DNA from: Cheilinus undulatus
Taxonomy: Eukaryota > Chordata > Actinopteri > Labriformes > Labridae
Direction of reading: 5' to 3'
Assembly (NCBI RefSeq): GCF_018320785.1
Contig: NC_054865.1
Location: 44,414,898 to 44,478,897 of the forward strand
DNA length: 64,000 nucleotides
Of the stretch, positions 1,503-60,779 are shown piece after piece (position 1 is the stretch's first letter; every line of letters starts with the position of its first letter). The notes beneath the pieces were generated by a model, which was not told the origin of the DNA, did no database searches, and was given only the letters and a program-made list of their open reading frames with translations. Made by a program: the position numbers and the translations under genes.

Positions 1503-14591
<13,089 letters not shown>

Positions 14592-15138: not shown

Positions 15139-17954
15139 ATGTCGTCCGATAAACTCATAGGACCTGCTTTACCCCCGATGTTCAGAAATGAGGAGAGCGA
15201 TGGAGACTCTGACGATGGAGAATGTAAGTAAGATAAATTATATTCCATTAAGAGTCTTTCTGCCACCCTATCTAAAAAGATTATAGTTAACCATAGACAA
15301 CATATGAAATATGTTTTCCCTGTTGTTTTCTTTGTGTCACCTTTTGTTAGTCGTTGGCCCTGCTTTGCCTCCCGGCTATAAACGAGGAGGACCTTCCAGC
15401 TCATCGGATGAGGAGGGGAAGGTGTCGGTCAAAAGAGCAAAAACACACCACACTACCTCAGAAGGGTAGGTTCAACAGTAAACAGTGAGTTGTTTTTATA
15501 TCTTTGACAACAAGCATGAAGGTAGCATTTTGATTTGGAGCAGGTTGAAGAAAACAAATTCACAAGAAGAAGATGATGGTTTCTTCGGACCAGCACTGCC
15601 ACCAGGATTTAAGAAACAACTTAGCTCACCAGAAAGGTGAACAGATTAATTTTACAGAAATTTAAAGGTTAATTATGCAAACCATAACCTTATAGTGTTC
15701 CTCTAGGCCACCAGTGCTGGGACCCGCTTTACCTCCTGGGTTTCGCAGAGCAGCATATGATGATGATGATGATGATAATGGTCAAGATGGAGAGGATATC
15801 CAGGGGCCAGCCCTTCCACCAGGCTACAGGGCTGAGTCCTCCAGCAGCGAAGGAGAGGATGAAGATGTTATTGGGCCCATGCCATCTAAAGGACCTGTGC
15901 AAGACTCTGTGGCACTGGATTTTGAGCGCAGAGCACAAAGGATGAAGGACAAGCTGAAAGGAGATGTGAGTCATATTTTTAAAAAGCTGAGTTCTCATGA
16001 GTTTGATCTGCACAGTTCCAAGTTAATTGATTACTGGGGTGCAGATGGCCTAGCGGTTAGGTTGTGACCCATGCATGTGGAGGTCCTGGGTTCAAGTCCA
16101 GCCTGTGGCCCCTTTCCTGCTTGTCTCTACCCAACTCTCTCATCCCTGTTTCAGACTCTGTCCACCATCCTGCTCTCTAAAATAAAGGCATAAAAAGCCC
16201 CAAATATATCTTTTAAAAAGTGATTACTGGTTGAATTTTCAATAGGAAAAATAACAATGAAAGGCCTTTAATTAGTCAAAGCAGACTGAATTGCTCCATT
16301 CCTCTCTGGCATCTTTTCATTGTCTTCTTCTGCTTTTTGATTTCTTCTATGTGTAATATTTCTGTTTGTTCAGGACGCCCCTGAAGTGCTAGCTAGAGAA
16401 TCATGGATGACAGAACTCCCTCCTGAACTGCAGCACATTGGCTTGGGTGCTCGAACCTTCAAGAAGAGATCAGGTCCAGAGAACAAAGATCGCTCCATTT
16501 GGACAGATACACCAGCAGACAGGGAGCGCAAAGCTAGGGTAGATATACAACTTCTCTTTTCACTTATCAATTAAATGTTTTTTAATCAAATCTAAGTATT
16601 TTTGAATGTATATCGTTGTATATTTGGTTTTTAATCTGTAGGAACGCCTTGAACGAAAGGAAAAGGGTCAACCGGAACAGGCTGAAGACGACAAACCAAA
16701 ACTCTCCAAGAAAGACTTGGACATGGCTGAAAAAGTTTCTAAATATAATGTAAGATGAGTTACCTTATTTTATTTGTTTCCTAAATGCCCATGCAGATGA
16801 GGTTATAATTATTCGCCCCCACAGGAAAATTTCAGTTTTCCCCAAGTATTTCCTAAATGCTGTTAAACAAAGCAAGGAATTGTTAACACAGCTTTTCCAA
16901 AAATCCTAGTTTTATTTTGGATGATAACATTATTTTAATTTGCACACAGAAATTAAAATGTATCACAAAACTACCAGGGTTGAAATTTTTAGACTTTTTT
17001 TTGGAAATTGTAGTCTCAGAGAAGACGATCTTAGAGCCCTGCACAGGAATGGAAGGAATCATGAAGAAAGAAGGATATGTGAAGATTCTGAAAGAAAACC
17101 TCAAGCAGTCAGGAGTAAAACTGGGTCTGGGTTGTCGCTTTGTCTTCCAACACGACAGCTACCCATAACATAACTCACTCCTGATGAAGAACTACCTTAA
17201 CATTAATACGTGACCAGAAAAAAGCCCTGACTTGAATCCCATTGAAAATCTGTGGGGTAAACTGAAGACCAAGGTCCATGCCAGAAGACCATCAAATCTG
17301 TAGGAGCTTGAGAGATTGGCCAAAGAAGAATGGGTTGGGATTCCTCAGGAGAGGAGTCTGAGACTTGTTGAAAACTACAACAAATGACTGCAGGCTATTA
17401 TCCAGCAAAAAGGAGGTACAACTTACCATTAGCATCAAGGGGCTAATTATTTAGACCCTGGTAGTGTTTTTTTGTTTGTTTGTTTTTTTGGTGAAATGAT
17501 TTTTTTTCCGCTTGCAAAGTACCGTGAACATCCAAAATAAACCTAGAATGTTTGGAAAAGCTGTGTTAAAAAAAGACCTTTCTCTGCTTAACAGCCCTTT
17601 ATCATACATAAAACAACAGAAATTTTCCTAGCGGAGCTAATAATTTTGTCCTTTTCTGTGTATATAATTCATTGAAGACCTGATACAGATTATTGAAGTG
17701 TCCTCTTTTAACTCACACCAACTTCCTATTGTCAGGAGTCTAAACGCGCTGAGTCTCTGATGAGTATGCACTCCAAAACAATGAAGGAAAAAGCAAAAGA
17801 GAAGGCTGACAAACCAGTGGAAAGGAGGCCATTTGACAGGGATAACGACCTGCAAGTGAATCGCTTTGATGATGCACAGAAGCAGCGCCTGATTAAGAAA
17901 TCTCAGGAACTAAACACACGTTTCTCCCACAGCAAGGATCGAATGTTTTTGTGA
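15139..17954 (+). CDS. gpalpp1: GPALPP motifs-containing protein 1, complete
   Basis: Seven exons join in phase to 347 aa: 15139-15223, 15351-15465, 15544-15636, 15707-15965, 16374-16538, 16642-16749, 17736-17954. The name-giving GPALPP motif occurs five times (residues 8-13, 31-36, 82-87, 103-108, 131-136), followed by a related IGPMPSKGP near 153-161. Between them lie acidic, serine-rich stretches, including six aspartates at 116-121. The C-terminal half matches the DUF3752-type domain: ESWMTELPPEL, RSIWTDTPADRERKA, the invariant-looking PFDRDNDLQVNRFD, and the closing LNTRFSHSKDRMFL. The molecular role is poorly known; a nuclear, RNA-related role is only a guess from its composition. Orientation and adjacency to gtf2f2 match the mammalian order as I recall it. 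Intron 4 carries a SINE and intron 6 a Tc1/mariner relic. Confidence 0.96.
16038..16220 (+). mobile_element. tRNA-derived SINE with target-site duplication
   Basis: The head has a Pol III A-box-like TGGCCTAGCGGTTAGG and a B-box-like GGTTCAAGTCC, followed by a pyrimidine-rich body and a tail with AAATAAAGGCATAAAAAG. A 10-bp direct repeat TGATTACTGG flanks it at 16028-16037 and 16221-16230. It resembles the AFC-like SINEs of percomorph fish; the family name is from memory. It lies in gpalpp1 intron 4. Confidence 0.85.
16800..17660 (+). mobile_element. Tc1/mariner transposon relic with inverted ends
   Basis: The ends are inverted repeats of over 100 bp; both contain AACACAGCTTTTCCAAA and a TTTATTTTGGATG block (left near 16890-16922, right near 17534-17572). 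The middle encodes the C-terminal half of a transposase: GMEGIMKKEGYVKILKENL near 17050-17106, an FQHD-like catalytic block, and NPIENLWGKLK near 17236-17268. The frame is broken and the 5' half of the transposase is missing. It lies in gpalpp1 intron 6. Confidence 0.8.
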
Positions 17955-19471: not shown

Positions 19472-22400
19472 ATGTCAGAGAAAGGAGAAGTGGATTTAAC
19501 TGGCGCTAAACAGAACACGGGCGTGTGGCTCGTAAAGGTGAGCGCAGATGTCTTTTATGCAAATTCCTCGTCAGTGAACGATTTAACAGTTTAGAAAAAA
19601 ATAAATATAGCCAGGGCTAACGCTATTGTGGCTTAGCTTCTGAAGCTACAATGAGACTGTTCGACGAAGCTCACGATGGCTAAGCTCACTTGCTAGCTGC
19701 TATCCAAAGCACCCTAAGTTTTGATTGTCAGTACTACTTGTCATGGTTATTTTTAGGTGAAGTGAAACGTTGTATATTAGTCAGGTGGAACTATATTGAC
19801 AGCACCACCAAAACGTGGAAAGGTAACATCATTGAAAGCTTTAAGCAGATAGAGTCTAAAAATAGATGCACTTTTGATAAATTTTAGTCTAGAAATCAAA
19901 TAGAGCCTGCCTTTAGTCATAAAACAACACAGCTGCTAAATAACCGGTATGAATTTACATTTTCTTGTGCATTCGACGCTTTGTTTTCGTGGATATTTGC
20001 AATATTATTAGTTACAGAAGTTTGTTTTTAGAGCTTTAAATAGCCAGGGGGGGGGGGAAGTAACTTATTACATTTATTCAAATGACTGTGTTTGAGTATT
20101 ATTTTGAGGTACTTGTACTTTTTTAGTACATTTTGTAATCAGTAGTTTTGGTCTACTAATGCAGGTTTTAACCATAGTAGCTGTACTTTTACTTGAGTAC
20201 AATCCTCTTGATCTTTTTACACCTCTGTTGATGACACAATAGCAAAGAGCGAGAGAATGAGTTTGTAGATGTTTCTAAAAAAATTTTTTTTTTCTTCTTC
20301 ATTATGGGGTACTGAGTTTAGATTAATGAGAATTACAATGTTTTTTGGACTGTAGCACCAGGCTGCAACATAACAGAACTTAAAAAGTGAAGGGGTCTTA
20401 ATACTTTCTGAGGGCACTGTAAAGAGAGAATGATTCCACATTAAAACTTACAACAGCTGTTTTAATTAACTTTATTATAAAGTTTCCTTGAACTACCTGG
20501 TTAGAGATCCATATTCTCACGTTGTTATTGTCACTAAGGGAAGATTATATTTTACTGTCCTTGTAAGCAGTCATCATGACAACATAAAACACTACCCAAG
20601 AAGTGTGGCATAAATATCAGTTTGACAGATAGTAACAAGACGGGCTGAACAGTTTTAAAAATATCCAAATGCGACTATTTTGACTAATTCAGAATTAATT
20701 GCTGGATTTTGGGGAGTGATCATTTTAATGTCATTCTCATTTTTAATAAGAAAAATGTATACAACATTATGGAAAGTAGAATTTTTGCAACCCATTCTCA
20801 AAAATTGATACTTGAATGCTTGCATGATGTGTAGAGCTTAACACTTCTGCTGCAAAACTGCATTTAACTGATTTTTGATGCACATTTCAGGTTAAGGAAA
20901 TAATGCAGTGTCTGCAGTTCGAAAAATGCTGTTAGCCGTATTAGAATGTAATCTAAATTGATTAGTTGCCCAGCCATAGTATTTATTCAGTACTTACTGT
21001 ATGAGAAACTTTTTTTCTTTTACTTGAGTAAGTTTATAGTCCTGTATTTTTACTTAAGTAAATTTTAACCAATTTACTGACTTTTACTTGAGTGCAATAG
21101 TCCAGTACTCTTTCACCTCTGGTTACAGTCTAGTCTTTACAGTGTATTTAAATTCTGCTCCAGATTGATGTTAGAACTTCTCACCTGGGAATGAATAATT
21201 CCACACTCAAAAAGGATAACTCCTTTAATGAATATCAGTACCTGAAGAATCTTTTTGAAGGTAAAAAAGCATCCTTCATATCCTTGTTCCTTTCTGCAGG
21301 TGCCCAAATATCTTTCTCAGCAATGGGCAAAAGCATCAGGAAGAGGAGAGGTCGGGAAACTCCGCATCTGCAAGTATGTGAAGCATTGGAGATTTTGTTA
21401 CTAATATGTATTGCTGTGCAAAGGAAAAGTGCAAAAAAAAATCCCATGATATTTAAGTATGAGCTTTTTTGGTTGAAATAGACAAGTTATGAAGGCAGTG
21501 TTTGTTGTGGTTTATATGCATTTTAAATGAATTGTAATGAATTAAACAGTATTGCCCTTTCCAATCCATGCATCCTGACTTATCACTTTTGTCTCCAAGG
21601 AAAGGAAACCTTGGGAAAGCAGAGGTATGTTATGAAATTAATTTCACTCAGTATCTTTGAATCTCATTATCACATTTTGGTCAAAAGCAGGGGTAAATAG
21701 CTATAGTGAGAGTGAAAATAGCCTGAGTTTGGTCAAATGCATGCATTCATTCATCAGTTTAACATCCATTTACAAACATCTAATCTGAAAGGCCAGATAG
21801 AATTTTTCTCATATCCATTGCATGGGAGCTTTGCACGATGGAGCTGCCTGATGAAAGACGTGAAATCTGGCCAATGTGCCAGCTCTGTGAGTTTATGAAA
21901 CATCAGCCATCAACCAATCTAATTCATGTTATAACACTATACTGAGAACAGGGTAACAGCAGTTTTGTCAAAAGGAAGCAAAGTTTTTGTTTAGCTTATT
22001 TGTGGCTGGTATTCTTTTTGTAGGTGTCATTCACTTTGAATGAGGAACTGACAGCGATTGAAGGCATAGAAGATAAGACGGTGTCTGCACCTCGTGAGCA
22101 CCCATTCACCATGCAGTCAGTCGGCGGTCAGACGCTCGCCGTCTTCACCGAAAGTTCATCGGGTGAGTTTTATATTCCATTCGTCAGGAAAAACGGGCTT
22201 AAATGCCCCTTCTATAAGACAAGATTCTGCCAAAAATCCATTAACTGTGTTGTTAGTTTTTTGTCATATGAAGTTTAAAACTAAACCCAAAGGTACGTTT
22301 TGTGTGATTAGGTGGTGGAGCTGCACATCCTGCTACCCTTTGTACAGTCTGCTGTCTTAATGCAAAGTCTTTCCCTCGCCTGCTTGTCTCTGTGTTGTGA

Positions 22401-25400
22401 ATTTTCACCAGTGTGAGACTGTCCACATTCCTGGCAGAGTACTTGTAAAGGAGATGTACTCCTGTGGGATAAGTGAACACTCACTGGGAAACAGAAGAAG
22501 CTGTTCTTTTGAAAATGTCTTCATTCAATCTAATTTGAGTTTCTGTCTCTCTGTGTACAAGACTTAAGCCTCAGTGTTGGATCCTCTGTCAGTTAACTTG
22601 TATTTGGTTTGACCTTTCCTGTCTTTGCCAATCACCTCAGTAGATCTGGTGTCTGATCAGGCACAATGGCCCTAATATATTAACATAGAGTAGACTGGAA
22701 TCAACTCAAATCACTGTTGGGTTTGGAGTTGATTTAATTTGTGCATGTGTTTCTTTGGTTTGGTTCGAATTTTACTACCTTCGTCTGCCCTCTGAATGTA
22801 CTGTTTTGTCGCTATGGGTGCTAGTGAGCTTATGCTTGTGTTGGTGAAGCATTTGTGTGTGTTTTTTTTAGGGCTGCACAGCTGAAATGTTATCAATAAT
22901 TAAACATATTTTTTTAATCATTTAAATTTTTAAAAGTGCAATTACTTGACTCAGTGACCCTAAACAGATATGCTGTAGAGTTAACAGATGGATGTAAGGA
23001 CAATTTCTTGTGAAGTAAGCAGCTACCAAGGAAAAACATTTTCTTTTAAATCAGCAAATTGAGAAGAAATAAAGAAAATGTTAATTATTATAACTGTAAA
23101 CACTGTAAATTAAAGGATGTTTAACACTTTATTGGTGAAATTGTGAAAATAAGTTTTCCTTTTAAAAAATATATTCAGTTTTGTTCTTTATTTGTGCAGC
23201 CCTGATGTGAAAGTGTATTTGTGATCGGCCAGGGTATCTGCTTTTTCGTTGTAAGGGCATGCTTGCTTTGCTCATGCGCACGCGTGTGTACCCGTCAGAG
23301 ATTTCGCCGAGATGCTCTGTGTGACGATCAACGTTTTGGTGTGCAACTAAACCCTGGGTGTGGCTCTTACTGTTCGATCCCCTCCTCCCATTCCCACTGT
23401 ATTTTCATCTTTACCATCCCTCCCTCCCTCCCTGTAGGCCAGTCAGAAGAAAGATCTGATGGCAGCAGCTCAGGTTCGGGGGCAGGGGGAGGTCCAGGTG
23501 AGTCCAATAGGAATCAGGCATACTGAGTGTCTATTTTTTTGGTGAATGGTTGTTCATAGGGTCACAGTAGTAGCCCTAATACATGCATGACAATACGCAT
23601 GTATTGATCCCAAGGCAGTAGATGTATTTTCTTCATGAAGACCTCCAGTTTCTACCTGAAGTGTCAGGTATGCTTCCTCTAGCTTTTGAGCACATTTCAA
23701 GTGGGCTTCTGCACAGACTGTTCCCTTTGAATCAGTGATAAGAATGAGAGCATGCAGTAATACTCGACAATAAACGTGTGCAGATATCCAGCTAGTCATT
23801 GTGATGGTTGTAATACTAGTGAGTTTGGTCATGATTTTGTGTTGATTTATGTGGAGTTAAGTTATGGATCCTACTTCAAGTTTAGATCCCCCAAGTGGTC
23901 AAAGCAAATGTAATAAGGAGCTTCAACATGGACCCTTGAATAATATAACATTTTCTTTTTAACTTTAGGAGAAAGCCTGGGCTGAACCAGATTCACTAGC
24001 ATTGTCAAACTTGGTGGCTCAAGTGTTTTTTTATTTCAAACATCCATTTGTATTATTCTCTATCCCTTCTCTCTGACACGCGCCTCTCCTTCCCTTTGAA
24101 AATAATATGTACTAAAGATGCATTTGTATATATGGTCGTAAACTGAGGTTTTCTTTAACTCTTCTTTTATAGATAAAATAGCCTTGGAGGGAGTGGTGGT
24201 GCAGAGAGCGGAATGCAGACCTGCTGTTAGTGAAAGCTACATGAGGCTAAAGAGGTGAGATATTGTAATATAGTTAGATGACAAGTTGTGTCGAGAACCT
24301 ACCCTTGTATTTGATTTACAGTTTATGTATGCATGACTGCAGTCTGTTGTGCTGTCATATCCAGCATAACCCAGCAGTTCATTCTTTGAACTGTATGTGG
24401 AAATCCTGATGTTAGTTCTGTCAGTGAATCATGTTAAGTCTTAGTCATGTCAGATGTCCTTGTGATCTTTTTTATGGCAAGCTTGTGTAATTATAAATCC
24501 AATCATAAATGTTTTTACATTTTGAATTATTCTAAGGTTCAAATTTATGTACATTTCATCACACAGATGTTTATTTTTTTCCCATCTCAGAGGTTACCTT
24601 AAAAATCGGAAGTATTCTACTGAAAGTAAAATGTTTCTTGTCATCTTACAGGCTACAAATCGAAGAGTCCTCAAAGCCAGCCAGGCTGTCAAAACAACTG
24701 CAGAGTCCCGTCACAAACAACTACAAACCTGTGGCCAACCACACATACAATGTAAGAAATATAGTCTGTTATAGGAATTCATTTTTCATCTAATCACTCT
24801 TTTATTCATGTTCCATCAAAAATGTAAACAGTGCATACCATTGCGATTACTCATACATTTAGAACTGGGTAAGAATTTTGCTGTTTTTTTAAGTGACTAA
24901 ACATGTTTTTGTTTGCTTTCCACTGAAACAATGTCCGTAAAAAAGTATTCATCCCTTGGATGTTTTACCCTTTTATTGATTTATAAATCAACCATAGTCA
25001 ATATAATTTAGCTTTTTTTGACAAAAAAGTCCAAAAAACTCTCTTATGTCAGAGTGAAAACCGTTTTCTTCAGGATGTTAATTGAATAAAAATTGGTCCT
25101 GCTCCGGAGCAGGGCCAAAGCAAGCCATCCCCGCCTCCAAGTGCGCTGTGGTGCACAACCAGAACTCGAAATTTATGTGCTCATACTGAGGTTTTCACAC
25201 TGACGAGTAAAAGACAGACCAGGTGCAGCGCAAGGATTATATATTCGTCTGTGCCTACTAATAACAAAAAGTTTAACCATTTCCCCTTGTTAAAAAATAA
25301 ATTCTAGACTTTTTGAAAATAAGATGCCAGAGATATTATCACTGTAATACTATTAAACTGTTTTTAAATTAATTTTAAAATATGAGATAAATATAGTAGT

Positions 25401-26287
25401 TATAATAATAATAATATAATGACATTAATAATAATAATCAATGTATCTCAAGTGATTGTTGTATAAAAAGGACATTTAAAAGCAACAAAAGCTAGAGCAT
25501 CATACAACAACCAAAGTAATGTTAAGGAATGAGAGATAGAAACAAGAATAGAAAATGCATAGAACAAACCACCAACTCAGAAAAGGGGTATTCAAACTCT
25601 TGTATGTAAAAGTATGTATTGAGGCCAGACTTGACAGAGGCAACAGAGAGATGTACTGATGGAGGATCTAAGAGGACTCAAGGTTGCATTAGAGCTCAAG
25701 AGGTCAGTTATATTGGAAGGGTGCAGTCTATTCAAGGATTTAAACACCAATAACACAAGCGTGAAATAGAACCTAAAGCAAGCCAAGAACCTGTGAAGAT
25801 AAGCCCATACCAATATGATATCTGACCTTTGTGTTTACTTTCTGCTACAGCTGGAGTATGAGAGGAAAAAGAAAGAGGAGGGCAAGAGAGCCAGAGCTGA
25901 CAAACAGCAGGTGTTGGACATGTTGTTTTCTGCTTTTGAGAAACATCAGTACTACAACATCAAAGACCTGGTGGACATCACCAAACAGCCTGTGGTAAGA
26001 CTAGAGGGCAAAATAAGGGCTCTCGTTTCTGACTTAAGTTTGCTTTTAATCACCACGAGTAAAGCTTTTTCTTGATGAACACGTTGTCATTGTAGCCTTG
26101 CAGGCACATAAAAATGAGGAAAAAAATATGTTTTTAACCATTTATGGTCTATTTCTCCTCCCAGATTTACTTGAAAGAAATCTTGCGTGATATCGGCATC
26201 TACAATGTGAAGGGAACACACAAGAATACCTGGGAGCTCAAGCCAGAATACCGACATTACCAAGGAGAGGAAAAGACTGATGAATAG
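19472..26287 (+). CDS. gtf2f2: TFIIF beta subunit (RAP30, GTF2F2), complete
   Basis: TFIIF beta pairs with GTF2F1, binds RNA polymerase II and helps start-site choice and early elongation. Constitutive exons 19472-19537, 21300-21373, 21600-21624, 22024-22162, 24173-24254, 24652-24751, 25851-25994 and 26165-26287 join in phase to 250 aa (human 249). Landmarks: the N-terminal DLTGAKQNTGVWLVK, VPKYLSQQWAKASGRGEVGKL in the dimerisation domain, EHPFTMQSVGGQTLAVFTES, a basic linker EYERKKKEEGKRARADKQ, and the C-terminal winged helix from about residue 175, ending ELKPEYRHYQGEEKTDE. Exon 3 is only 25 nt. A 60-nt in-frame exon candidate lies between the 22162 and 24173 junctions and is listed separately. 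The 1.8-kb first intron holds transposon fragments. No open frame for KCTD4, which I recall nested here in mammals, is present. Confidence 0.97.
20050..21125 (+). mobile_element. Fragments of DNA-transposon ends in gtf2f2 intron 1
   Basis: Two plus-oriented segments, about 20060-20226 and 20990-21122, share a 'ctgtacttttacttgagtac'-like tract and close with 'cacctctg'. This is a pattern common at the ends of fish hAT-like elements. Between them, 20255-20421 is a Tc1-type right end: a 'cattatggggta' tract, 'ctgcaacataacagaact', and a terminal 'gggcactgta'. No transposase coding sequence is visible. Confidence 0.5.
23438..23497 (+). CDS. gtf2f2: Candidate in-frame cassette exon of gtf2f2 (20 codons)
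   Basis: A long pyrimidine tract (CCCTCCCTCCCTCCCTGTAG) ends at 23437 and a GTGAGT donor starts at 23498. The 60 nt between are open in the phase left by exon 4 (ends 22162, phase 1) and hand the same phase to the exon at 24173, so inclusion or skipping keeps the frame. Inclusion would add GQSEERSDG followed by SSSGSGAGGGP after the TESSS block, between the N-terminal dimerisation domain and the LEGVVVQRAE strand. The inserted residues are low-complexity and do not match human GTF2F2 as I recall it. Whether it is used, always or in some tissues, cannot be told from sequence. Confidence 0.7.
24935..25130 (+). mobile_element. Tc1-like left end plus dispersed MITE fragment
   Basis: The tract from 'gtattcatcccttggatg' through 'cccttttattgatttataaa' and 'agctttttttgaca' is the familiar 5' region of a fish Tc1-like element. 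It breaks off near 25090. Directly after it, GAGCAGGGCCAAAGCAAGCC at 25108-25127 recurs with one mismatch at 32915-32934, so a different dispersed element abuts here. Located in gtf2f2 intron 7. Confidence 0.55.
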
Positions 26288-34430: not shown

Positions 34431-34874
34431 ATGGAGCTAACACGCATGTGCGTAAAGCGCGCGCCTGCCTCTTCTCCCAGCATTGATAGAGGAGCTGCAG
34501 CACTTCTTAATTGGTCTCGGTGAGTTTAAATGGTCTACCAGCAGCTTCCTGCGGATTTACGTGCAGACATGCAGGCTTCAAAGACGTAAGAACAGGTGAG
34601 TCGACGTTCACTAGGTTCATTTTTTAAATGTGTGGCCTCTTTATGTGAACTAATAGGCTAATGTTGGTAAATGTGAGGAATACTTAGGCTGTGAAAAGTA
34701 AATAGAAATTATTTTCGCCAAATACAGTGAAGTAAATCTGTTTCTCCAGCTGTTGAATTAGGACCAAACTGTGAGGGAAATGTAGCCTAAAACATAATGT
34801 GTTTCTTATTCAAACGAACGTTTTGCAAAGACTTTTACAGGCAGCAGTGAGCAGTGAAGCAACAGCCCTACAAC
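34431..34874 (+). promoter_or_regulatory. tanc1: tanc1 promoter region, 5' leader exon and first intron
   Basis: A CpG-rich patch (34440-34480) is followed by three possible 5' splice donors: GTGAGT at 34520, GTAAGA at about 34586 and GTGAGT at 34596. A good acceptor (CTTTTACAG) at 34832-34840 opens the exon that carries the start codon at 34875. The leader exon is therefore non-coding, and its boundaries and start site are not fixed by sequence. Confidence 0.45.

Positions 34875-60779
<25,905 letters not shown>

Follow-up and report, generated by a model that had tools for sequence, protein, structure and literature searches.

The gtf2f2 locus

The window, that is the whole 64 kb stretch of DNA that was analysed, carries on its + strand the gtf2f2 gene, which encodes the beta subunit of TFIIF (RAP30/Tfg2). 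The gene was rebuilt from tblastn matches with human RAP30 as the query in combination with splice rules, and the result supports the gene identity and exon anatomy proposed in a sequence-only reading of this DNA. A PDB search places the product in TFIIF beta with an E-value of 8e-134 over residues 1-248 of the form that lacks the candidate exon described below (the skip form); in this typed query the microexon was represented by an X and one residue was surplus. The protein comprises a dimerisation domain and a winged-helix domain that are homologous to those of RAP30, and Pfam recognises TFIIF_beta in the exon that starts at 25851. The coding exons of the model are as follows.

19472..19537, + strand: gtf2f2 coding exon 1 (MSEKGEVDLTGAKQNTGVWLVK); tblastn (human RAP30 query) and splice model
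21300..21373, + strand: gtf2f2 coding exon 2; tblastn and splice model
21600..21624, + strand: predicted 25-nt gtf2f2 microexon encoding (K)KGNLGKAE; AG..GT intron scan and splice model
22024..22162, + strand: upstream flanking exon of gtf2f2, ending in VFTESSS, with donor CGG/GTGAGT in phase 1; tblastn and splice model
24173..24254, + strand: downstream flanking exon of gtf2f2, starting with (D)KIALEGVVVQRAECRPA; tblastn and splice model
24652..24751, + strand: gtf2f2 coding exon; tblastn and splice model
25851..25994, + strand: gtf2f2 coding exon in which the winged-helix domain begins (Pfam TFIIF_beta); tblastn, Pfam and splice model
26165..26287, + strand: final gtf2f2 coding exon, ending with the stop codon; tblastn and splice model, with the end derived from the 250-residue model

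The microexon was placed because the reading frame needs to be restored between the exon end at 21373 (phase 2) and the exon start at 22024 (phase 0), and it is one of four candidates left when the intron was scanned for AG..GT segments shorter than 90 nt that carry a [QKRN]G motif. In this region the protein would read KKGNLGKAEVSF where human RAP30 has KTQGRTEVSF, and is thus two residues longer here. One scan of each of two sets for relatives, with a 51-residue query from the conserved exon at 25851, confirmed none of 21 peptide-pattern matches in viral_contigs and none of 163 in genome_contigs; records of the window's own genome were possibly excluded from both sets. A study of Lake Victoria cichlids names gtf2f2a among highly differentiated regions (PMC8321545).

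A candidate 60-nt exon between the flanking exons

The intron that separates the exons at 22024-22162 and 24173-24254 is 2010 nt long and contains a short segment with the appearance of a cassette exon, together with the following features.

23312..23435, + strand: 124 nt devoid of AG upstream of the candidate acceptor; branch-like motifs are CTTAC (-69), TTCAT (-31) and TTTAC (-25); motif scan
23417..23433, + strand: (TCCC)4.2 repeat within the polypyrimidine tract; repeat scan
23438..23497, + strand: candidate 60-nt in-frame exon, which would add the 20 residues GQSEERSDGSSSGSGAGGGP; sequence, splice scoring and gene model
23474..23494, + strand: G-runs within the candidate exon, with predicted pairing to the pyrimidine tract; fold prediction

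The segment, GCCAGTCAGAAGAAAGATCTGATGGCAGCAGCTCAGGTTCGGGGGCAGGGGGAGGTCCAG, is preceded by a long C/T tract that ends in TGTAG and is followed by GTGAGT. Its acceptor reads ...CCCTCCCTCCCTCCCTGTAG/GCC and its donor, CAG/GTGAGT, matches the consensus at all 9 of 9 positions. The phase-1 frame runs through the segment free of stops as (G)QSEERSDGSSSGSGAGGGP(D), and 13 of the 20 encoded residues are Gly or Ser. Its length is a multiple of three, both ends are in phase 1 and it fits both neighbours, as expected of a symmetric cassette exon. When the segment is skipped the flanking exons join in frame as TESSS-DKIALEG, and the full gene model yields a skip form of 250 aa and an include form of 270 aa. 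The sequence-only reading had given the same boundaries, splice sites and open frame, which can be read directly in the DNA, and its in-frame joining of the neighbours and its two protein lengths are reproduced by the gene model.

The candidate resembles the symmetric cassette exons of vertebrates in its 1-1 phase, its length in a multiple of three, its shortness and its low-complexity Ser/Gly product, but differs from such exons generally in that its host encodes a subunit of a general transcription factor. At 60 nt it is longer than the neuronal microexons of the Srrm3/4 class, which measure about 3-27 nt. The segment contains GAAGAA, a motif of the splicing-enhancer type. The skip form has at its junction an SSSD motif, presumably CK2-like, which the include form lacks over the corresponding stretch.

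Strength of the splice sites and expectation by chance

How rare the candidate appears depends on the acceptor model, that is on whether C is counted like T or T is favoured. The acceptor was scored with a C/T-mixed matrix, with a T-favouring matrix over 20 bases and with a T-favouring matrix over a 14-base tract. With the C/T-mixed matrix the candidate acceptor ranks first among the 8307 AGs of both strands of the window, and the donor score is attained by three of 7036 GTs, the candidate included. No other acceptor-donor pair in the window with a spacing of 20-250 nt reaches both scores, and equally good pairs over the same spacing arose in 0 of 9000 simulated introns (3000 from each of three Markov models, orders 1-3). 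This top rank depends on C being scored like T and on the simple (TCCC)n run. With the T-favouring 20-base matrix the acceptor drops to rank 315 of 8307, where the seven acceptors in the gene model hold ranks 15-249, and its score of 3.0 is the weakest of the gene (3.6-8.2 for the other seven). Over the 14-base tract it ranks 191 of 8307, inside the range of 11-288 occupied by the modelled acceptors. An AG-free stretch as long as the one ahead of the candidate acceptor precedes 10 of 8258 AGs, the candidate included, and overlaps the pyrimidine tract.

Taken together, the favoured interpretation, to which a probability of about 60% may be given, is that gtf2f2 has a genuine small in-frame exon at 23438-23497; the figure is held at this level because the candidate was picked out of 64 kb. 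In its favour stand the full-consensus donor, the top acceptor rank under the C/T-mixed matrix, the rarity of equal pairs in the simulations, the long AG-free stretch with its branch-like motifs, the GAAGAA motif, the fitting length and phase, and the yeast parallel described below. The most substantial competing explanation, rated somewhat improbable yet well ahead of the others considered below, is that the segment is an unused pseudo-exon, a decoy pair of sites created where a C-rich simple repeat adjoins a G-rich stretch and ignored by the spliceosome. The contribution of (TCCC)4.2 to the acceptor tract and the lower ranks under the T-favouring models fit this explanation, and G-rich repeats may give rise to Gly and Ser codons. 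Similar pairs also occur elsewhere in the window. Two further CAG/GTGAGT donors on the + strand, at 34596 and 36597, each lie within 250 nt of a passable acceptor (34481-34595 and 36411-36596), and no protein was recognised by eye in the translations of these two segments. On the - strand, the last of the four donors with the full consensus (AAGGTAAGT, 3867) has a fair acceptor as its partner (3868-3985). As the other full-consensus donors also find acceptors, pairs of this sort prove nothing on their own. When the thresholds are lowered to 4 for the acceptor and 6 for the donor, the two strands of the window together yield 18 pairs, and the candidate is one of three among them that are symmetric and have an open phase-1 frame. 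The open frame is likewise weak evidence, as it forms part of a stop-to-stop run of 106 codons and runs of at least 100 codons are common in the window (35 in six frames). What speaks against a decoy is the coincidence of site quality and frame under the stricter matrix: with the T-favouring 20-base model equally good pairs occurred in 51 of 6000 simulated introns (7, 13 and 31 per 2000), whereas pairs that were in addition symmetric, open and in phase occurred in only 2 of 6000 (2, 0 and 0 per 2000).

If the exon is genuine, it might also be a constitutive, lineage-specific one that is nearly always included and gives a single longer RAP30 rather than a switch. Such an exon, a special case of the favoured interpretation with a likelihood that overlaps with it, is considered unlikely. 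Under the C/T-mixed matrix the candidate sites score 10.4 (acceptor) and 9.1 (donor) and exceed those of the flanking exons, the upstream donor at 7.6 and the downstream acceptor at 5.2, so that the exon, if real, could be near-constitutive; site strength does not clearly give skipping an advantage. Against constant inclusion stands the T-favouring 20-base score of the acceptor, which lies below all seven modelled ones, and U2AF binds more weakly to C-rich tracts. An alternative first exon or a transcript from an internal promoter, rather than a cassette, is very improbable even though GC content and CpG o/e rise to 0.53 and 1.15 just upstream (23263-23362) and the frame is open over its full run, because that open frame has no ATG ahead of the segment, and the 100-nt step at 23263-23362 is the only one in the intron where CpG o/e exceeds 1.

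Place of the putative insert in RAP30 and comparison with yeast Tfg2

The skip form aligns with human RAP30 (GTF2F2) over its whole length in the PDB search and is 81% identical to the human sequence, and the TESSSDK junction is identical in human RAP30 (PDB 29tk_R, 1f3u_A). The human PDB chain reads TESSSDKLSLEG and thus passes through TESSS^DK without the 20-residue insert, as had been stated when the exon was first proposed. That proposal placed the insert beside the dimerisation domain, which is incorrect: the insertion site, VFTESSS^DKIALEG, is spanned by 1f3u_A, the crystallised human dimerisation domain of 118 residues, and the insert would therefore lie inside the domain.

A lengthening at nearly the same place is found in yeast Tfg2. 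The full-length chains 5fyw_R (400 aa) and 7ml4_R (398 aa) align to the window protein in two pieces, which in 5fyw_R run to residue 142 (...VFTEQNLKK) and resume at residue 210 (KKTAIVG...). The shorter chains 4v1n_R (331 aa) and 5fmf_V (174 aa) are uninterrupted through VFTEQNLKKTAIVG, which in the alignment of 4v1n_R lies opposite VFTESSSDKIALEG. Their shortness probably reflects an engineered deletion or the inclusion of modelled residues only, and 5fyw_R exceeds 4v1n_R by 69 residues. By these alignments the candidate insertion point would fall about two residues or less from a yeast insertion of about 69 residues. The split is in agreement with a figure legend in PMC3043253 that gives the Tfg2 dimerisation domain as two parts.

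Like the candidate, Tfg2 thus carries extra residues at the same place of the dimerisation domain (VFTEQNLKK^...^KKTAIVG), but it has about 69 of them as opposed to 20, and the comparison concerns their position. The yeast residues indicate that the loop tolerates insertions, and since the two insertion points coincide to within about two residues the product encoded by the candidate exon would be tolerable as well. By this analogy the 20 residues should be accommodated with changes only to the contacts of the loop, and the putative insert is less strange and more believable for the yeast parallel. To our knowledge TFIIF beta, a core initiation factor, is usually regarded as invariant in vertebrates. 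The absence of the insert from the human protein speaks against a genuine exon. Given the long extension of the same loop in yeast, an insert here would be less surprising than first proposed. Among the literature matches listed (titles and the starts of abstracts, from open-licence literature, so that the absence is weak) there is no report of an alternative gtf2f2 exon.

Possible consequences and control of inclusion

On the favoured interpretation of a genuine exon, the spliceosome would use the segment and skip it in some transcripts, and as the cassette is symmetric both products would remain in frame, so that subunits of 250 aa and 270 aa are possible. Splicing-in would lengthen a loop of the RAP30 dimerisation domain, probably an exposed hairpin, by 20 mostly Ser/Gly residues and leave the rest of the protein sequence unaltered. 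The effect on TFIIF is likely to be mild, with a tunable exposed loop and no change to core activity. Judged from its sequence, the candidate is a plausible new alternative exon of a conserved factor.

The choice between inclusion and skipping may be set by the RNA itself, if the C-rich tract pairs with the exonic G-runs and thereby hides the acceptor. In fold predictions the tract at 23417-23433 and the G-runs at 23474-23494 have a mean pairing of 0.78 in a 120-nt window of folding and of 0.68 at 180, 260 and 360 nt. The stability of the 120-nt fold is not significant in comparison with shuffled sequences (-46.4 vs -40.7 +/- 4.1 kcal/mol, z -1.4, with 15 of 200 shuffles as good), and control of inclusion by RNA structure is put forward as a suggestion. 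Alternatively, factors that bind the exonic G-runs could control skipping. The fuller proposal, in which a regulated switch generates two forms of TFIIF beta in fish by lengthening the loop that is also lengthened in the budding yeast genome, possibly under the control of pairing between G-runs and tract, is doubtful, albeit a little less so than constant inclusion.

If the exon is used, a core initiation factor would exist in an alternative form that varies at the loop of the yeast Tfg2 insertion, and the role of this loop would become testable in an animal by the deletion of a single exon. If it is unused, it makes a good case of a strong-looking decoy exon.

Neighbouring features of the window

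The same intron contains, just upstream of the candidate exon at 22870-23203, perfect 11-bp inverted repeats (AGGGCTGCACA / TGTGCAGCCCT) that are 312 nt apart, which we take to delimit an element resembling a small hAT-type non-autonomous DNA element. The candidate exon lies outside this element and bears no sign of being derived from it. A second inverted repeat, at 5290-5603, has 64-nt arms that are 97% complementary and separated by 186 nt. Three further open frames were noted: one at 10326-10709 on the - strand with a Pfam ResIII match, presumably ercc3-like, one at 15696-16064 on the + strand, which has no Pfam match and is assumed to be gpalpp1-like, and one at 59473-59877 on the + strand with a Pfam AAA_16 match, which we take to be tanc-like. 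A long degenerate array at 57296-58746 is built of ATATGATA-like units, the copies of which lie mostly at 5-bp steps.
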